Part shown: positions 3,287 to 11,480 of the stretch, piece by piece
Layout of the letters: each line of letters opens with the position of its first letter
Position numbering within the stretch: the stretch's first letter is position 1
Source of the DNA: Herbiconiux solani NBRC 106740
GTDB lineage: Bacteria > Actinomycetota > Actinomycetes > Actinomycetales > Microbacteriaceae
NCBI RefSeq assembly: GCF_001571005.1
Contig: NZ_BCST01000012.1
Span: 1 to 47,451 of the forward strand
Direction of reading: 5' to 3'
DNA: 47,451 nt
The notes under the pieces: generated by a model
Databases searched by the model: none
What the model was told of the DNA's origin: nothing
Seen by the model: the letters and a program-made list of their open reading frames with translations, nothing else
Translations under genes and position numbers: made by a program

Positions 3287-6200
3287 TCAGCTCTGGCGAA
3301 TGCGAATGCGAATGCGAATGCGACGGCGGCGGAGGAGGGCGAACCCGAGCCCCAGCGCGATCAGCGCCGCCGCAGCGCCGACCCAGACGACCGCCTGCGA
3401 ACCGGTCGACGCGAGGTCGCCGTGCGAGCCGGAGCCGGCCGCATCCGAACCCGGAGCGCCCGGCTGCCCCGCCCCGGGGTCACCCGGCGTCCCGGTCCCC
3501 GGCTGGCCCGTCCCGGGCGTACCCGGTTCGCCCGTGCCCGGCTCGCCGGTGCCGGGCGTACCCGGCCCCGCGTCGGCCACCGGCTGCAGCATGTCGAGCG
3601 TGACCGGCAGCGCCTTCACCCAGCGGATGCCGAGGGCGATCGCGGTGCCGTCGAACGACTCGTAGGTGGCTCGGTTCCAGATCCGCTGCCCCTCAGGTAC
3701 CCGCAGCGGCACCTCCACGACCGGCCCGACCTCCGTCACGACCTCGTGGCCGAACTTGGCGGTGTAGAAGAACGGGCCCTCGATGTCCGAACCGAAGCCG
3801 GCGCGGAAGTCGAAGCCGCCGCTGTACGCCGGGTACCGGTTGCTGAACACGAGCGACAGAGCCTCGTCAGCACTGGGATCGGCGGCTGCGGTAGGACCGG
3901 CGGCTGCGGTAGGACCGGCAGCAGCAGAACCGGCCCCTCCCGAAGACGGATCGCTGAAGGTCATCCAGTAGTCCTGTGTGATCACCGGCGCACCCGCACA
4001 CCGCCCCGCCGCCGTGTTGACGTAGCTCGCCAGTACCTCCCCGTCGTCGCTCAGCAGCTCCACCGAGGTCTTGCCGTTCATGTCGAAGGTCTGCGAGAAG
4101 GTCTCGCCGTTGCGCTTCTCGATCGGCATCCCGGCGAACACCACCGGCCCCGAGCAGAGCTTGTAGCGCAGGTCGACGGCCAGGCCGTGCGGCCCCCGGT
4201 TGAGGTAGTGCAGGTCGGCCAGGTTCGGATCGGCCGCGTTCTGCGTGATCGAGACGTCGCTCGAGTCGGAGGTCGGCACCACGAAGGTGTACTCCAGGCG
4301 CTGCGCGACCGCACCGGCCGGAGGGGTGGCCAGGAGCACCGCCGTGTAGACGCCCGGGCTGAGTCGCACGCCCTCCGAGACAGTCGCTCCGGCGTTCAGC
4401 CCCGGATCCATCGCGACCTCGTACGAGCCGGTGTACTCGACTCCGGCCGATCCGCTGACGGTGAGTCCGATCCGGCCGTGTCCCGCGTAGGCCATCTCGA
4501 TCGCGGCGGTGGCCGCTCCCTCGCTGTCGAACTCGAGCTGCTCGAGTGCCGACAGCAGCACGAGGTCGGTGACGTGCAGGGTCGTGGTGACCGCCGCATC
4601 CGCTGTGCTGAGGGTCACGGGATGCTCGCCCACGGGCAGGTCGGCCGCGAGCTGGATGCCCCGCCGTGACGTGCCACCCGGGCCCGCGATGCCGGTGAGC
4701 ACGCTCGACCCGTCGAGGGTCACCCGGTAGGCCTGGCCCGCGTCGAGCCCCGAGACGTCGACCTCGACGATCGTGCCGGGACGCGCCCAGGCCCGGTCGA
4801 ACGAGATCGCCGGGTCGCCGGTCGGAGCCGGAGCCGTTCCCGGCACCGTGATCTCGAGGGCGGTGTGGTGGCCCGAGTCGCCGAAGCCGACCTGGCCGTA
4901 GTAGCTCGCACCGGCCTCGAGTCCCGACCACGAGACGCCGACGGATGCCGGTTGGCCCAGCGTGGTCTGCAGAGTGGTCGGCGTCACCGTGAGAGCGCCC
5001 GCGTTCGTGCTCGTCCCGAGCACGTAGCTCGTGAGGGTGTAGCCGAGGTCGCCTTCGCCCGAGAAGAAGTCGACGTCGAGCACGTAGCGCCCGGCCGGCA
5101 GCCCGGCGAAGTCGATCACCTCGTGCGAGCTCGACGTCGCGGCGTCGGCCCAGGGGATGAGCTGCTGCGTCGAGTCCAGCGACGAGAGGTGCAGGTCGAG
5201 GTCGGCCGAGGGGTCGGCGCCGTCGAGCACGAAGTGGGCGAGGGTGGTGCCGTCCGGGACGTCGACGACGTGCCGGTCGGATCGCACGGGCTCACCGATG
5301 GGAGCGGCGGTGCCGGAGCCGGACATCACCTCGCCCTTGACGAGGCCGGCGTGGCTGATGGCGAACGACTCGGTGGCGCCGACCGAGACCGGGATCTCGA
5401 GCGATCCCGAGGCGCCGTCGCCGGTCGCGACTTCGGGCACGTCCAGAGAGACCGGGCGCACCGCGACGGGCAGGGTGACGGTGGATGCGGCGTCGGCGAC
5501 GTCGTGCCAGATCAGCTGGCCGGTGACGAAACGATCGACCGGCGCATCCGTTCTGGTGAAGGTCACCGAGTACTGCTGCTGCTCGCCTGCGGCCGAGAAC
5601 GTCAGCGTGCTCGGGGTCACGACCGCGTCGATGCCGTCGAGCGCGGGCGCGGTGACGGCGTAGCTGCCGGGCCGCGTCGCGGTGACGGTGCGGGTGATCG
5701 TCTCGGAGCCGGCCAGTCCGCCGATGCTGATCGAGGGCAGGTTGAGCTCGGAGGGGTCGATCGTGTCGACGCCGAGGTCGACGTCGGCCACCGACTCGAT
5801 GTAGCCGTACCAGTCGGTGGGCCCGTTGAGGTAGAGCATCCCGGGGTCGAAGTAGCGGGTCGGGTCGATCTGCCCGGCTCCCTGCGCGAACGGATCGGTG
5901 TTCGGCGCCCCCGAGGCGTCGACGGTGTCGTGGGCGGTGGTCATCATGGCCGACTTGATCTCGCTCGGCGAGGCATCCGGATGCTCGCCCAGGTAGAGCG
6001 CGGCGAGCCCGGCCACGTGCGGAGAGGCCATCGACGTGCCCGAGAGCAGCGCGTAGTCGCCGTCGGCGCCCGGCTCGCTCGAGAAGGCGGCGAGGATCGC
6101 GACGCCGGGAGCGGCGATGTCCGGCTTCAGCACGTCGCTGCCGTCGGCCAGGATCGGGCCTCGGGAGGAGAATCCGGCGACCTGCGGGGTCACCGGCGAC

Positions 6201-7975
6201 GGCAGGCCGGCCGGGTTGCCGTCTTCGAGCGTGACGGTGGCGCCGGGGACGGCCGCGTAGGTGTGGAGGGTCTCGTAGGCGGCCGCATCCACGTGCACGG
6301 TGGGCAGCACGTGGGTGTCGAGGTCGATCGAGCTCGGGGTGGGGTTGACCATGACGACGCCGATGCCGCCCGCGCGGGCGACCTCCTCGGTCTTCGCGGT
6401 GCGGTCGACGACCCCGCGGTCGCAGAGCACGATGAGACCCTTGGCCTTGGCGGGGTCGAGGGTGCCCGGGCCGCAGAGGGCGGGGGAGTCGGCGCCGGCC
6501 GCCGCGACGGCGGTGGCGTCGACGAAGGAACCCGTGACGGGAGCGTCGGCGGGGACCGTGATGGAGCCGCCGAGGATGCTGCGGCCGTCGCCGAGCTTCA
6601 CCGTCGCCTCGTAGGAGGGGATGGTGCTGGCGGCGACGGTCGTGATCCAGGGGGCGGCGTTGTCGGCGGTGGAGGCCTTGTCGCCGTCGTTGCCCGCCGA
6701 GGCGGCGACGAAGACGCCGACCGCGGCCGCGTTGAGGAAGGCCTCGTCGGTCAGCGAGACGGTGGTCTGCGCGGCGCCGCCGCCGATGGAGTAGTTGATG
6801 ACGTCGACGCCGTCGGCCACCGCGGCGTCGATCGCCGCGAGCAGGTCACCCGTCTGGCAGCCGTCGTCGTCATGGGTCTCGCCTGACCAGCAGGCCTTGT
6901 ACATCGCGATCTTGGCCCCGGGGACGACTCCCGAGATGTGGCCGAAGTCGCGGCCGGCCACGGTCGCGTCGACGTCGGCGTCGCCCGCGGCGGTGCTGGA
7001 GGTGTGCGAGCCGTGCCCGCTGCCGTCGCGCGGGGAGAGGTAGTCGTGCGCGCCCACCGCGATCGGGTTGAAGCTGTCGACGAAGTAGCGGGCCGTGATC
7101 AGCTTGGTCGAGCAGTCGCCGGCGTCGAAGCCGGGGCCGGTCTCGCACTCGCCGCGGAAGGTCTGGCCGTCGGCCTTGTCGAACACGACGGTGTCCCCGT
7201 CGCGGTAGGGCTCGGCCCCGGGGGCGGTGCCGAGCGGGTCTCCGGCGAAGGAGGCGTTCTCGGGGCTGATCCCGCTGTCGATCACGCCGACGACGATGCC
7301 GTCGCCCGCGGAGGCGGCGCCGCCGGTCTGGGCCCAGACGCCGTCGGCGCCGGAGAGGCCCAGGAAGTCGGTGGACGAGGTGGCCTGCAGGTGCAGCAAC
7401 TCGTCGGGGACGACGGCGGCGACCCTCGGGTCGGCGGCCAGGGCTTTGGCCTGCGAGCTGCTGAGCACACTCGCGAAGCCGTTGGTGGTGAGGGTGTAGT
7501 TCGTGGTGATCGCGGCGTCGACCGAGTCGGCGACGGCCTGCTGCTGACCGGCGAGGTAGCCGGAGTAGTCGGTGACGCGGCGGGACGAGACGTCGAGGTC
7601 GTCGCCGTCGACGGGTTGCGTGGCGCCGAGGGTGGCGACTCCGCCGCGGTAGGTGGCGACGGCGGCGTCGCGGAGGGTGACGATGTAGCGGCCGTCGGCG
7701 AAGGTGCGGGCGGATGCGGGCGGCTCGGCCGGTGCGGGGGCGTCGGTGGATGCGGCTGTTGCCGGGGTTGCCGGGGTTGCCGAGGTTGCCGAGGTGGCCG
7801 GGGTGGTCGCGGCCGTCGCGATGCCGGCCGGGACGGTCGCGGCGAAGGCGGATGGCGCCGACAGGGCTCCGAGCCCGGCCGCGAGGACCAGCGCGGTCGC
7901 CGCTGCCCCCAGACGGACGCCGCGACGATCGGTGGAGCGGCGGGGAGGCCGCGGGGTGCCGGAGTGAATGTTCAC
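3287..7975 (-). CDS. Secreted subtilisin-like serine protease (S8) with LAxTG wall anchor
   Basis: I place the start at the GTG at 7975, which has AAGGA six bases upstream; an in-frame start further up (8083) lacks these features. The product is about 1562 residues. In order: a signal peptide with hydrophobic core ending SAFAA (about residue 46), an Ala/Thr/Pro-rich stretch, an I9-type inhibitor propeptide (about 95-195), and the S8 catalytic domain with Asp in VIDSG (about 233), His in GSGHGSHT (about 321), Asn in SAGNDGD and Ser in GTSMASPHVAG (about 648). A PA-type insertion lies at about 485-595. A long C-terminal region of beta-rich domains follows, then a Gly/Pro/Thr linker, LASTG (about 1521), a membrane segment and an Arg-rich tail. 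It is probably a broad-specificity protease displayed on the wall. The tail (RIRIRIR) is encoded by a hexamer repeat. Confidence 0.93.
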   Translation of the reverse strand: MNIHSGTPRPPRRSTDRRGVRLGAAATALVLAAGLGALSAPSAFAATVPAGIATAATTPATSATSATPATPATAASTDAPAPAEPPASARTFADGRYIVTLRDAAVATYRGGVATLGATQPVDGDDLDVSSRRVTDYSGYLAGQQQAVADSVDAAITTNYTLTTNGFASVLSSSQAKALAADPRVAAVVPDELLHLQATSSTDFLGLSGADGVWAQTGGAASAGDGIVVGVIDSGISPENASFAGDPLGTAPGAEPYRDGDTVVFDKADGQTFRGECETGPGFDAGDCSTKLITARYFVDSFNPIAVGAHDYLSPRDGSGHGSHTSSTAAGDADVDATVAGRDFGHISGVVPGAKIAMYKACWSGETHDDDGCQTGDLLAAIDAAVADGVDVINYSIGGGAAQTTVSLTDEAFLNAAAVGVFVAASAGNDGDKASTADNAAPWITTVAASTIPSYEATVKLGDGRSILGGSITVPADAPVTGSFVDATAVAAAGADSPALCGPGTLDPAKAKGLIVLCDRGVVDRTAKTEEVARAGGIGVVMVNPTPSSIDLDTHVLPTVHVDAAAYETLHTYAAVPGATVTLEDGNPAGLPSPVTPQVAGFSSRGPILADGSDVLKPDIAAPGVAILAAFSSEPGADGDYALLSGTSMASPHVAGLAALYLGEHPDASPSEIKSAMMTTAHDTVDASGAPNTDPFAQGAGQIDPTRYFDPGMLYLNGPTDWYGYIESVADVDLGVDTIDPSELNLPSISIGGLAGSETITRTVTATRPGSYAVTAPALDGIDAVVTPSTLTFSAAGEQQQYSVTFTRTDAPVDRFVTGQLIWHDVADAASTVTLPVAVRPVSLDVPEVATGDGASGSLEIPVSVGATESFAISHAGLVKGEVMSGSGTAAPIGEPVRSDRHVVDVPDGTTLAHFVLDGADPSADLDLHLSSLDSTQQLIPWADAATSSSHEVIDFAGLPAGRYVLDVDFFSGEGDLGYTLTSYVLGTSTNAGALTVTPTTLQTTLGQPASVGVSWSGLEAGASYYGQVGFGDSGHHTALEITVPGTAPAPTGDPAISFDRAWARPGTIVEVDVSGLDAGQAYRVTLDGSSVLTGIAGPGGTSRRGIQLAADLPVGEHPVTLSTADAAVTTTLHVTDLVLLSALEQLEFDSEGAATAAIEMAYAGHGRIGLTVSGSAGVEYTGSYEVAMDPGLNAGATVSEGVRLSPGVYTAVLLATPPAGAVAQRLEYTFVVPTSDSSDVSITQNAADPNLADLHYLNRGPHGLAVDLRYKLCSGPVVFAGMPIEKRNGETFSQTFDMNGKTSVELLSDDGEVLASYVNTAAGRCAGAPVITQDYWMTFSDPSSGGAGSAAAGPTAAAGPTAAADPSADEALSLVFSNRYPAYSGGFDFRAGFGSDIEGPFFYTAKFGHEVVTEVGPVVEVPLRVPEGQRIWNRATYESFDGTAIALGIRWVKALPVTLDMLQPVADAGPGTPGTGEPGTGEPGTPGTGQPGTGTPGDPGAGQPGAPGSDAAGSGSHGDLASTGSQAVVWVGAAAALIALGLGFALLRRRRIRIRIRIRQS
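3296..3319. repeat. Hexanucleotide repeat GCGAAT x4 in the subtilase 3' end
   Basis: Four perfect GCGAAT units encode alternating Ile-Arg pairs at the cytoplasmic tail of the subtilase. Change in copy number would keep the frame and alter only tail charge and length. Confidence 0.85.
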
Positions 7976-8136
7976 GGGATTCCTTGTTCGAAGACGTGAC
8001 GGAGTTCTCGCCTGATCGCGGGCCCCCGGAGTACCCCCATCTTCGGGGGCCACCGTGGCGCTGCCGTGGCCGGAAGCGGTCAACGTCCGCGAGAGGCCAC
8101 CCCCGGAAACATGATTGTTACGTGGCCCCGCCCCCA

Positions 8137-8221: not shown

Positions 8222-9196
8222 CTAGCGGCGGCGGATGGAGGCCAGGGACCACTGGCGCACCTGGCCCGGGCGCGTGGTGGTGCAGGTGGAGAGGAGGGCA
8301 TCGGAGAGCTGCTCCTCGAGGTCGACCACGATCTCGCCGGCCGGCGCCGCCAGGCGCACGGTCCAGCGGGCGGTACCCCCGCCGTCGTGCCACTCCTCGC
8401 CGAGCGGGGCGTAGGCATCCAGACCGTCGTCGCCGTACTCGAGCCGCGCGTAGTGCTGCGCCGCCTGCACCGGATGCGTGAGCGAGCTCCGCCCCCGGTA
8501 GAACTCCTCGACGACCCGGCCGTCGAGGTAGGCGTCCGCGATCCCCGCGGCATCCCCGTCGTCGACCCGCCCGTAATAGAGGCCGTGCGGGAAGAGCACC
8601 ATCGTCCCGGCGAAGCGGTCGCCGCCGAGGTGCGAGCACTCCCAGGTCTCGTCGGGGTAGGCCTCCGCGAGCCGGGTCACGACCTGGCGCCCGCGCACCG
8701 CGCAGCACTGGTCGTGCCGGGCGTGTGCGCAAACTGCGAAGACGGGCCGATCGGATGCGGTGCCCGCCGAGCCGTCCAGCGGCACCTCGAGCAGGTCCTC
8801 CGGTGACGACACCTCGCCCCAGCGGACGGTCTCGTGGCCGGGACGCGAGTCGACGAAGGCCCACTTCCAGCTCGTCTGCTCGGGCCGGCGGCCGGTGCGG
8901 CGGATGGCGAGCGGCCGCATCCCCGCCGCTTCGATGCGCGTCACGAGCGCGCGCCCGAGCTCGGCGTCGAAGGGCGGGTCGAGGAACGCCCGCGTGCCCC
9001 AGGCCCCGGAGATCTCGACCAGGAACCACTGCAGCCCGCGCGACCCGGTGGCGGCGAGCGGATCCATCCGCTCCCGCGACCGGTCGCTGCACGGCGCCCA
9101 GCCGTCACCGACCGGATCGTTGCCGAACCCGCCGGAGGAACCGGGCGCAGGGCGCGACGACGGCGGCTGCCCGGTGGAGGGCAGCGCCCTCGTCAT
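8222..9196 (-). CDS. Sucrase/ferredoxin-like (Suc_Fer) thioredoxin-fold ferredoxin
   Basis: The 324-residue product shows the family's hallmarks in order: CSDRSRERMDPL near residue 35, WFLVEISGAWG, the cysteine cluster VCAHARHDQCCAVRG, and WECSHLGGDRFAGT followed by LFPHGLYYGR. The family is a thioredoxin-like fold thought to bind a [2Fe-2S] cluster through these Cys residues; despite the name there is no evidence of sucrase activity. The ATG at 9196 keeps the conserved CSDRS segment. It is 43 bases after the cupin oxygenase stop, and is the third gene of the peptide-oxygenase operon, where it might supply electrons or keep the oxygenase iron reduced (inference). The ribosome-binding site is weak. 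Its 3' end abuts palindromic element copy 2. Confidence 0.85.
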   Translation of the reverse strand: MTRALPSTGQPPSSRPAPGSSGGFGNDPVGDGWAPCSDRSRERMDPLAATGSRGLQWFLVEISGAWGTRAFLDPPFDAELGRALVTRIEAAGMRPLAIRRTGRRPEQTSWKWAFVDSRPGHETVRWGEVSSPEDLLEVPLDGSAGTASDRPVFAVCAHARHDQCCAVRGRQVVTRLAEAYPDETWECSHLGGDRFAGTMVLFPHGLYYGRVDDGDAAGIADAYLDGRVVEEFYRGRSSLTHPVQAAQHYARLEYGDDGLDAYAPLGEEWHDGGGTARWTVRLAAPAGEIVVDLEEQLSDALLSTCTTTRPGQVRQWSLASIRRR

Positions 9197-9239
9197 CGGA
9201 CGGACCGGCCGCGTCGCAGCTCCCGCATCCCGGAGACCA

Positions 9240-10544
9240 TCACGCGGGAACCAGGATCCCCTCGCGCAGCAGCCGTCGGGCGACCACGACCGCACTGGCC
9301 GGGTCGAGGCCGGCGAACTCGCTGAGCGCGATATCTCCGCCCTCGTGCAGCTGGCGTACGGCGGCTTCGGCCTCGGCGGGCAGCGAGACGGTCTTCGAGG
9401 CGGTCCGGATGCGCACGGTCTCGCCGTCGGGAGAGAGCGAGACGGCGGCGTGCAGCGAGCCGCGCCACCGCACGGTCGACACGGGGCCGAGGGCCGCGAT
9501 GAAGTCGATCGTGGCGAGCGGCGACACCGGCTCGGGGCGCGTGGCCGAGGCGAATCGCGAGGCGAGGCGCTTCGAGACCGTGACCGCCGCATCCGTCGCA
9601 GGCGCAGCATCCGTCGCACCCGCAAGTGCATCCGCACCGGCCCCACCCGAAGCCATCCCCGCGAACGCCTCCTGCAGCGCGGCGAGCGTCTCGTCGACGA
9701 CGCCCTGCATCGCGGCCGGATCCGAGAAGTCGAGCCCCGCGGGCAAGGACGAGCGTAGTGCGGCGATGTCGCCGAGCGAGCCGATCAGCGCCTGCACGAC
9801 GTCGGCGCGGGTGTAGGCGGCGACGCCGATCGTGAGGTGCACGCTGGTGCCGCCAAGGGCTTCGGCCGAGTGGATCCACCCGCGCGGAAGATAGAGGGCG
9901 TCACCGGGCCTGAAGACGGCGTCGATCACGGGCTCGTGGGTCGCCGCTTCGGCGACGGCGGCACGGTGGTCGCTCCACGGCTGGTCGCGCAGCGGGTCGG
10001 GATGCACGGGGGCATGGATGCGCCAGTGCTTCTCGCCCGCGATCTGCAGCACGAACACGTCGTGCACGTCGTAATGGGGGTCGAAACCGCGCGAGGAAGC
10101 CGGGGTGATGTACGCGTTCACCTGCACCGGATGCCCGAGGTCGTCGACCAGTCGCCGGGTGAAGTCGATCAGCGGCGGCCAGGTGCGGTGCAGGCCCTGC
10201 AGCACGATCGTGGCCCCGCCGGCGAACTCGGCGAGCACCTTCTCGGAGCTCACCTGGTCGCCCACCTCGGCACCGAAACCCCCGGGCGCCGTGTATGACG
10301 AGGGGGAGAGCACCGAGCCCTCGTGGGCCATGCGGATGAACGGGGTGCGCAGCCCGCGCTCGCTCACGAGCTCGTCGACCGCGGCCTCGGTCAGCAGGTC
10401 ACGGAAGCCCTCGGGGAGGGTCGATGCGCGCGACAGCAGGGGCTTCTGCGCCCAGAACTCACGGTCGAACTCGTCCGGATCGACCGAGATGCAACGGGAG
10501 AGCGCGGGCCGGGCGACCGACCCGCGCTCGAGTTCGATCGTCAC
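9240..10544 (-). CDS. Cupin-4 / JmjC-type 2-oxoglutarate Fe(II) oxygenase (ribosomal-oxygenase-like)
   Basis: The 434-residue protein starts at GTG 10544, overlapping the stop of the preceding peptide gene as GTGA, so translation is coupled. The double-stranded beta-helix carries the iron facial triad: H157-Y-D159 in DPHYDVHDVFVLQ and H225 in LPRGWIHSAEA. GEKHWRI follows the first metal motif as in the ribosomal-oxygenase group (bacterial YcfD, human NO66 and MINA53), which hydroxylate Arg or His side chains on proteins. The C-terminal part (about 300-434) would be the dimerisation and winged-helix region. In this operon the obvious candidate substrate is the repeat peptide encoded immediately upstream. 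A ribosomal protein is the alternative substrate and cannot be excluded. Confidence 0.88.
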   Translation of the reverse strand: MTIELERGSVARPALSRCISVDPDEFDREFWAQKPLLSRASTLPEGFRDLLTEAAVDELVSERGLRTPFIRMAHEGSVLSPSSYTAPGGFGAEVGDQVSSEKVLAEFAGGATIVLQGLHRTWPPLIDFTRRLVDDLGHPVQVNAYITPASSRGFDPHYDVHDVFVLQIAGEKHWRIHAPVHPDPLRDQPWSDHRAAVAEAATHEPVIDAVFRPGDALYLPRGWIHSAEALGGTSVHLTIGVAAYTRADVVQALIGSLGDIAALRSSLPAGLDFSDPAAMQGVVDETLAALQEAFAGMASGGAGADALAGATDAAPATDAAVTVSKRLASRFASATRPEPVSPLATIDFIAALGPVSTVRWRGSLHAAVSLSPDGETVRIRTASKTVSLPAEAEAAVRQLHEGGDIALSEFAGLDPASAVVVARRLLREGILVPA

Positions 10545-10798
10545 GCCGAGCCGTCAGCCCCGCCGTCGTGGCCACCGGGGTTGGCTCCGCCGTCAGCGGT
10601 GCCCTCTCCCTCGTCAGCCGAGCCGTCGGCTCCGCCGTCGTGGCCGTCGGGGTTCGCCCCGCCGTCGGCCGGACCCTCGCCGCCCGCAGCGGAGCCGTCG
10701 GCCCCGCCGTCGTGGCCGCCCGGGTTCGCTCCGCCGTCAGCGGTTCCCTCGCCGCCCGCAGCTGCGTCGGTCGTGATGTCGTCGTCGTCGATTGCCAT
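10541..10798 (-). CDS. Small acidic triple-repeat peptide, candidate oxygenase substrate
   Basis: An 85-residue protein of unrecognised family. A 14-residue leader (MAIDDDDITTDAAA) is followed by three units of about 24 residues built on GEGTADGGANPGGHDGGADG. The copies differ at few positions (T/P, G/D and the unit ends). Each unit has exactly one His, one Asn-Pro and several Asp; the whole protein has no Lys, Arg, Cys or aromatic residue. ATG 10798 has a strong GAGAGGAG site. The stop overlaps the oxygenase start as GTGA. A short leader plus repeated cores next to a modifying enzyme resembles a multi-core RiPP precursor; a metal-binding or intrinsically disordered acidic peptide is the alternative. 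Function is unproven. Confidence 0.8.
   Translation of the reverse strand: MAIDDDDITTDAAAGGEGTADGGANPGGHDGGADGSAAGGEGPADGGANPDGHDGGADGSADEGEGTADGGANPGGHDGGADGSA
10544..10756. repeat. Three tandem 72-base units encoding the peptide repeats
   Basis: Units lie at 10685-10756, 10613-10684 and 10544-10612 (the last shortened to 69 bases). They differ mainly at third codon positions, so the peptide sequence appears conserved under selection rather than freshly copied. Confidence 0.85.
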
Positions 10799-10985
10799 CT
10801 GATCTCCTCTCACCGGCGGCATGATGCCGTCGCTCGAAGCGTACGCCCGACCCCTGACACGGCGCATCCTCCCCTTGTCGCATTTCGACCCGGAGGTGGT
10901 TGGCGGGGCGCTGTCGGGCGGGTGGCGGGTGACTGGCGGGCTGCTGTCGTGGTCGGTCCCGAATGCGCGCCCTAGCGTTGCATCC

Positions 10986-11480
10986 ATGAACGAGACACGC
11001 ATCATCACCCTCCGCCGGGAGCGGGGCTGGACCCAGGAGAAGCTCGCGGCCGAGAGCGGCGTCGCCGTGCGCACCGTGCAGCGGCTGGAGAGCGGCCAGG
11101 ACGCCAGCCTCGAGACCCTCTCGATGGTCGCGAAGGCGCTCGGCGTCACGGTGGGGGAGCTGTTCTCCGCGGTGGAGAGCGACGACTTCCAGGCCGCGGT
11201 CGGGGCCCTCGACGACCGGTCGGCCACGCAGCAGCGTCAGCGCGACGGGGCCGTGGCCGGCTACCGCTACCTCTACACCGGGGTGGGGCTCGTCGTCTCC
11301 GTCGGCGTCATCGTGCTGATCGGTCTGCAGATCGTGCCCGGGATCGCCATCCTCCTCACCGGTCTCTACTGGGCCGGCGGGGCGCTGCTCGGGCGCTTCC
11401 TGCTGGCCTCGGTCATCAATCCGCGGCTCGACGCGAAGTACCCGCTCTCGATCCCCACCCCTTCGCGGCGCGACCGCTGA
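10986..11480 (+). CDS. XRE-family regulator with C-terminal membrane segments
   Basis: A 164-residue protein with an N-terminal helix-turn-helix (about residues 8-62: RRERGWTQEKLAAESGVAVRT, VQRLESG, LSMVAKALGVTVGELF) and two hydrophobic segments at about 97-140, ending with a short basic tail. It would be a DNA-binding protein tethered to the membrane. The ATG at 10986 follows CTAGCGTT by a few bases with no Shine-Dalgarno, suggesting a leaderless mRNA. It is divergent from the peptide/oxygenase operon with 187 bases between, so it is a candidate regulator of that operon. It could equally control only itself. Confidence 0.82.
   Translation: MNETRIITLRRERGWTQEKLAAESGVAVRTVQRLESGQDASLETLSMVAKALGVTVGELFSAVESDDFQAAVGALDDRSATQQRQRDGAVAGYRYLYTGVGLVVSVGVIVLIGLQIVPGIAILLTGLYWAGGALLGRFLLASVINPRLDAKYPLSIPTPSRRDR

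Follow-up and report, generated by a model that had tools for sequence, protein, structure and literature searches.

The ribosomal oxygenases (ROX), among them NO66/MINA53 and YcfD/RoxA, belong to Pfam family PF08007 and carry a C-terminal winged helix for which, to our knowledge, no clear peptide role has been described so far. Iyer et al. (NAR, 2010) reportedly dealt with jumonji-related dioxygenases that modify peptides in bacteria, within peptide systems, and may have noted operons related to the one presented here. RRE-like folds fused to PF08007 occur in fish and algae (PMC12710340). In the biphenomycin family of RiPPs, PbsQ, BpmG and BipG are reported to carry out a JmjC-type hydroxylation of Orn, a late tailoring step that follows the action of an MNIO and an arginase (PMC12257519, PMC12707348). 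Among graspetides, corallotide (CorA/CorC) is presented as a five-repeat precursor combined with a 2OG oxygenase, and Asp hydroxylation is cited there for SmaO of the SmaO/SmaX system (PMC13097080).

The locus analysed here lies in a stretch of 47,451 nt from Herbiconiux solani NBRC 106740 (hereafter, the window), which is an entire contig of a 3.85-Mb genome. It shares with the biphenomycin family a JmjC-type oxygenase beside a ribosomal precursor, and with the graspetides a repeat-bearing precursor accompanied by a 2OG oxygenase. It differs from ROX in that genes for an acidic repeat peptide and for a ferredoxin accompany that of the oxygenase, from the biphenomycin family in that the oxygenase is the sole modifying enzyme and the peptide bears Asp-rich repeats, and from the graspetides in that ATP-grasp ligases are absent among the conserved neighbours (blastp clusters of 21 neighbourhoods). 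No literature on this three-gene set was found in searches that lacked most subscription journals. Judging from its sequence, the set may work like a RiPP system or a dedicated hydroxylase-substrate pair, and could stand for a class of modified ribosomal peptides that has not been described before. If so, it would represent a minimal three-gene peptide-modification unit common to actinobacteria of several families and classes, it would link ribosomal oxygenases to RiPP leader recognition, and it would provide a ready substrate for probing JmjC action on Asp.

Organization of the Locus

The three genes are transcribed from the minus strand in the order peptide, oxygenase, ferredoxin (Table 1), the latter two being separated by 43 nt. 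The acidic 85-residue peptide with three repeats, the cupin-4 oxygenase and the ferredoxin-like gene described in the initial annotation are real, with the two larger proteins assigned by Pfam to JmjC_2 and PF06999, and the GTGA overlap claimed between the peptide TGA stop and the oxygenase GTG start is correct. Herbiconiux, Microbacteriaceae, provides the closest named relatives of the oxygenase.

Table 1. Features of the three-gene locus, in window coordinates.
Feature	Position	Strand	Remarks
Acidic repeat peptide (candidate precursor/substrate)	10541..10798	-	85 aa; no Pfam/NCBIfam match
Putative Shine-Dalgarno AGAGGAG (AGGAG-like RBS), 5' of the peptide ATG	10804..10811	-	Read from sequence
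Short leader MAIDDDDITTDAAAGG, motif I-x-D-D-D-I-T-T	10751..10798	-	Family regular expression
Repeat 1, residues 17-37	10688..10750	-	
Repeat 2, residues 41-61	10616..10678	-	
Repeat 3, residues 65-85	10544..10606	-	
JmjC_2 (cupin-4, ribosomal-oxygenase-like) Fe(II)/2OG oxygenase, 434 aa, GTG start	9240..10544	-	
JmjC domain, H157-x-D159...H225 + K172	9804..10130	-	
C-terminal winged-helix domain, ~residues 348-434, with middling likeness to RiPP recognition elements	9243..9503	-	Predicted fold
Sucrase/ferredoxin-like (thioredoxin-like ferredoxin) protein, 324 aa	8222..9196	-	PF06999

Other features of the window were also recorded. An S8 subtilase of 1598 aa that contains I9 and PA domains (3287-8083, minus strand) adjoins the operon on the same strand and is no conserved neighbour. 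At ~190 bp from the peptide start, a divergent HTH_3 (XRE-type) regulator gene is found (10989-11480, plus strand), its conservation as a neighbour staying below the threshold of at least 5 of 21 stretches. The contig starts with a tandem duplication (46-793; 375-bp unit, 2.0 copies, 79% matches).

The Peptide Gene

Among the 85 residues of the window peptide are 28 G, 17 A, 16 D, 4 E and 3 H, and K, R, C, F, W and Y do not occur. It begins with MAIDDDDITTDAAAGG, followed by three units EG[TP]ADGGANP[GD]GHDGGADGSA of 21 residues, spaced every 24, reflected in the DNA as a 72-bp repeat of 3.1 copies with 84% matches. Searches of Pfam and NCBIfam at E up to 1 returned no match, the peptide being nameless in both. 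Lacking Lys, Arg, Cys and aromatics, peptides of this composition would for the most part be missed by proteomics based on trypsin, a possible reason why they have been overlooked.

Pairs of units within the peptide show 6-7 synonymous and 0-2 non-synonymous codon differences, and comparison with 14 orthologues, all of 85 aa, gives dN values of 0-0.107 against dS values of 0.19-1.83. The repeats are under purifying selection in the genus and its relatives. The composition filter used for detecting such peptides fires at 87 of 109 loci upstream of oxygenases (86 after hand-mending). Run as a control on 1244 strand-windows of 700 nt each, taken from 20 stretches and the window, it fires in 37 of them, the 39 hits comprising 21 operon peptides and 18 others. 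The peptide is, thus, a real gene. DNA coding for DGGADG occurs at ten places in the genome, three inside the operon and seven single; L155, the only single place that was read, had been considered as a second peptide copy and turned out to be an off-frame match.

Distribution and Conservation of the Three-Gene Set

PF08007 is present in 62 of the 396 genomes of the phylum sample, the window's own included. The 109 JmjC_2 loci compared comprise the window, 34 loci of named relatives, 7 further loci and 67 from the phylum-wide search, from which seven weak places (G142:C49, two in G227, G307, G218:C23, G163:C28 and G390) were left out. Loci L003-L015, L019 and L024, mostly from the same genomes as named loci, also stay outside the 109; two of them without a named twin, L006 and L011, carry the peptide as well.

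Before hand-mending, peptides were called at 87 loci, ferredoxins at 82 and both at 77. In the mending, a spurious peptide at L126 and a fragment at a contig edge, that of L112, were discarded, and L109, missed by the filter, was added. Both genes are then found at 78 loci, only the peptide at 8, only the ferredoxin at 4 and neither at 19, that is, an acidic repeat peptide lies upstream at 86 of 109 and a ferredoxin downstream at 82 of 109. The ferredoxin-only loci (L049, L093, L094 and L111) are situated at or near the edges of contigs or fetched stretches, and L093 does hold an Asp-rich frame that the filter missed. Counted per genome, in 59 of the 62 genomes (the three with only weak matches being left out), 49 have the peptide and 42 the peptide and the ferredoxin. 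The set therefore extends well past the genus of the window, into many actinobacteria, and the absence of the peptide beside orthologous oxygenases, which the initial annotation had regarded as fatal to its proposal, is not what these loci display.

In a rapid maximum-likelihood phylogeny of 105 oxygenases, with SH-aLRT as its sole support measure and the four weak loci L119 and L124-L126 left out, two state changes suffice to explain the presence of the peptide. The node holding the peptide rows has a support of 90, and below it a 40-row branch with mostly DxD-type peptides (support 97) and a 51-row branch with mostly DGGAD-type peptides (support 95) are found. L090, the only peptide-less member with intact flanks, appears as a long branch inside the DxD branch. 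Peptide-less oxygenases, mostly of code group f21, fall outside the peptide node and also lack this ferredoxin.

Neighbourhoods were compared in 21 stretches of ~16-21 kb by blastp (E 1e-8) of ORFs of at least 90 aa, a procedure that misses shorter ORFs and distant homologues, with the peptides, most of which are shorter than 90 aa, being detected by the composition filter. The oxygenase and the peptide are present in all 21, and the ferredoxin is found in 20, L139 being the exception. The remaining conserved clusters are antisense frames of the set genes and one cluster of ABC-type ATPases, the only further sense-strand cluster in at least 5 stretches, which appears in 5 of 21 and does not adjoin the operon. 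Neither a linked protease or exporter nor an uptake or export gene is conserved across these 21 neighbourhoods. The three genes form one unit.

Anatomy of the Peptide Family

The 86 hand-mended peptides have approximate lengths of 38-155 residues, a few starts being uncertain, and contain 6-37 Asp each, with a median Asp fraction of 0.19. Asp occurs in all 86, His in 60, Arg in 33, Lys in 14, aromatic residues (F/W/Y) in 13 and Cys in none, so that the absence of Lys, Arg, Cys and aromatics initially pointed out holds for the window peptide and, within the family, for Cys only. Their common N-terminal motif is roughly L/I-x-D-D/E-D-I/M-T/E-T, typical leaders being MAINDDDITTE and LSDEDIETV. 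The leader expression [DE][DEN][DE][IMV], with one variant allowed, matches 74 of 88 peptide frames. In this count L023 is misplaced, and variants of the motif can be recognised by eye in part of the 14 misses. Cores are of several kinds, namely ADGGANP.GHDGGADGSA, EGPADGGAAGTPGVHDGGADGG, DADADSTDADADST, DGDATDADGTDADG and GSDPAGSDPAG, together with two odd ones, ADGTDQGVAGGTYGPRDAG (L088) and TEDDENLDAPGEHSQDTGDE (L115). At the sequence level, core types vary between tree branches and the leader is conserved.

The Oxygenase and Its C-Terminal Domain

The oxygenase matches Pfam JmjC_2 (PF08007) with E = 1.9e-29 and 102 bits, the cut-off being 22. NO66 and MINA53, already proposed as relatives, are the closest solved structures, with ~20% identity to NO66. 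The HxD...H iron site, described from the beginning as intact, is kept in all 91 aligned members, in which H157, D159, H225 and K172 are identical; K172 would be the 2OG-binding Lys, by analogy with FIH. Gly240, a Gly in 90 of 91, aligns with NO66 Ser421, the residue in contact with the substrate His.

Structure prediction for the oxygenase and its C-terminal domain yields the ROX architecture with a C-terminal winged helix. The fold predicted for this domain is most like the winged helix found in MINA53/NO66. A fainter resemblance links it to the PqqD-like winged helix of RiPP recognition elements, this second similarity being middling and the same domain being found in ROX enzymes.

The Ferredoxin-Like Protein

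The third gene of the set, with its likely start at the ATG at 9196, matches PF06999 (Suc_Fer-like) with E = 8.8e-19. All 81 ferredoxin sequences have C36, C156, C164, C165, H189 and C305, and D193 is kept in 98%, defining the motifs C156-x8-C165 (C-x8-C in 81/81) and H189-x3-D193. The Apd1/Aim32 thioredoxin-like ferredoxins share with it PF06999 and the C-x8-C pair. The motif of Aim32 is C-x8-C...H-x3-H (PMC8482512). On the contrary, the H-x3-H ligands are not found here, with the first His conserved in the 81 sequences and Asp replacing the second His ligand in 98% of them, and an extra invariant Cys is present. Eight peptide loci show no detected ferredoxin (some of them, L102, L065, L071 and L074, only because sequence is missing there), and, therefore, the protein may not be needed everywhere.

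Proposed Function and Alternatives

The RiPP-like arrangement or dedicated enzyme-substrate pair proposed in the initial annotation is supported as regards the leader, the repeated cores, the coupled modifying enzyme and the idea of a dedicated substrate. A short candidate precursor gene lies beside the putative modifying enzyme at 86 of 109 loci, and a conserved leader (74/88) precedes a variable or repeated core; a linked protease and exporter, common though not universal in RiPP systems, are not seen in the 21 neighbourhoods. We slightly favour, as a whole, a reading in which the peptide would be a dedicated oxygenase substrate, docked by its leader, hydroxylated at core Asp residues and served by the ferredoxin. 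The acidic/hydrophobic leader would dock on the C-terminal winged helix of the oxygenase, acting like a RiPP recognition element, which we consider probable. The repeated cores would then pass the JmjC iron site and be hydroxylated several times per peptide, most likely at the Asp beta-carbon, although we give this position only even chances. The thioredoxin-like ferredoxin might donate the electrons needed to hold the iron in the Fe(II) state or restore it to that state, a role suggested tentatively. Since no conserved transporter or protease accompanies the set, the modified peptide is likely either to work within the cell or to be exported by general machinery, intracellular action in itself being an evenly balanced matter.

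Regarding the modified residue, the part of the initial proposal that is not supported is the His target. It envisaged an oxygenase-substrate pair in which one His per repeat, within PGGHDGG, would be hydroxylated as in NO66/MINA53. In fact, His is missing altogether from 26 of the 86 peptides, 25 of which fall in the group of 38 outside the DGGAD type, beside enzymes with identical iron residues, and the His of each repeat is not conserved across the family. Moreover, L038 has Arg in place of the HDGG His in two repeats out of three, and the NO66 Ser that contacts the substrate His corresponds to Gly240, a Gly in 90 of 91 oxygenases. In its favour, the closest solved relatives of the enzyme do hydroxylate His, and HDGG is kept in 43 of the 48 DGGAD-type peptides (among the other five, L054 has no His, and L053, L055, L056 and L067 have it elsewhere only). 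His directly precedes DGGAD at 122 of 201 sites, and a His target may consequently be confined to that branch; for the family, we regard it as unlikely. Asp, being the only candidate residue common to 86 of 86 peptides, is somewhat favoured as the target on the basis of its occurrence.

It might also be considered that the peptide is no substrate and binds the oxygenase or the ferredoxin as a chaperone, an inhibitor or a regulator of disordered, acidic nature, the real substrate being another protein. Its strongly acidic, low-complexity and repeat-rich character, as well as the persistence of the N-terminal motif while the cores diverge, would fit such a role. Nonetheless, considering that (i) the core repeats are under purifying selection in the genus and its relatives, (ii) every peptide is repetitive or Asp-rich, as a multi-site substrate would be, and (iii) PF08007 occurs in only 62 of 396 phylum-sample genomes, so that a house-keeping substrate of an essential kind, for instance a ribosomal protein, is unlikely, this role appears improbable.

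Beta-hydroxy-Asp serves as an iron ligand in siderophores, and the product might be a metal-binding peptide whose Asp residues, once converted to beta-hydroxy-Asp, chelate Fe(III) or Ca(II). The ferredoxin would then act on the metal held by the peptide and not on the enzyme. The 6-37 Asp per peptide, the DGGAD and DADG-like spacing and the adjoining Apd1/Aim32-type iron-sulfur protein agree with this possibility. However, no conserved uptake or export gene is present in the 21 neighbourhoods, and the 85 upstream regions evaluated are no closer to an IdeR/DtxR-like consensus than their own shuffles; iron regulation was accordingly dropped as support, and we find this alternative very unlikely. 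Extending instead the favoured reading, of a leader-docked and Asp-hydroxylated substrate, the set would be an undescribed phylum-wide RiPP-like class in which a single RRE-bearing JmjC oxygenase produces a poly-(beta-hydroxyaspartyl) intracellular polymer binding iron or calcium, with a dedicated ferredoxin of unusual C/C/H/D or Cys-rich site, which is speculative and rather doubtful. Finally, a mere coincidence, in which a spurious and unrelated ORF happens to lie upstream of a ribosomal-protein oxygenase, conceivable in GC-rich DNA with its many open frames, is refuted by dN values far below dS, by the same peptide type at 86 of 109 loci and by the control, in which 18 hits outside the operons were counted over 1244 windows.

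Related Peptide-Oxygenase Loci

Some loci show other short ORFs beside JmjC_2 genes. Directly 5' of the JmjC_2 gene of a Streptomyces clavuligerus plasmid (NZ_CP065235.1; L127:5772-5918), a hypothetical 48-aa ORF, MDDKKTSLEPDEIEV..., starts with SLEPDEIEV, like the leader motif, and continues with core units ADNDPSDP/ADPDPFDP. Three further Streptomyces plasmids (L128, L157 and L158) have a short ORF with an LLxxxRRIxxAR motif that ends in GRSDGND or KSDMNDT, and in the copy on a Nocardia plasmid (L159) the ORF is unannotated and ends in DGLNLAES. In these four plasmid sets, the short ORF is followed by JmjC_2, an aldo/keto reductase and one further gene, an arrangement that, from the sequences, has the look of a second family of peptide-oxygenase pairs. 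On chromosomes, L059 and L064, both of code f21, have relatives of the RSDGND peptides 5' of their peptide-less JmjC_2 genes.
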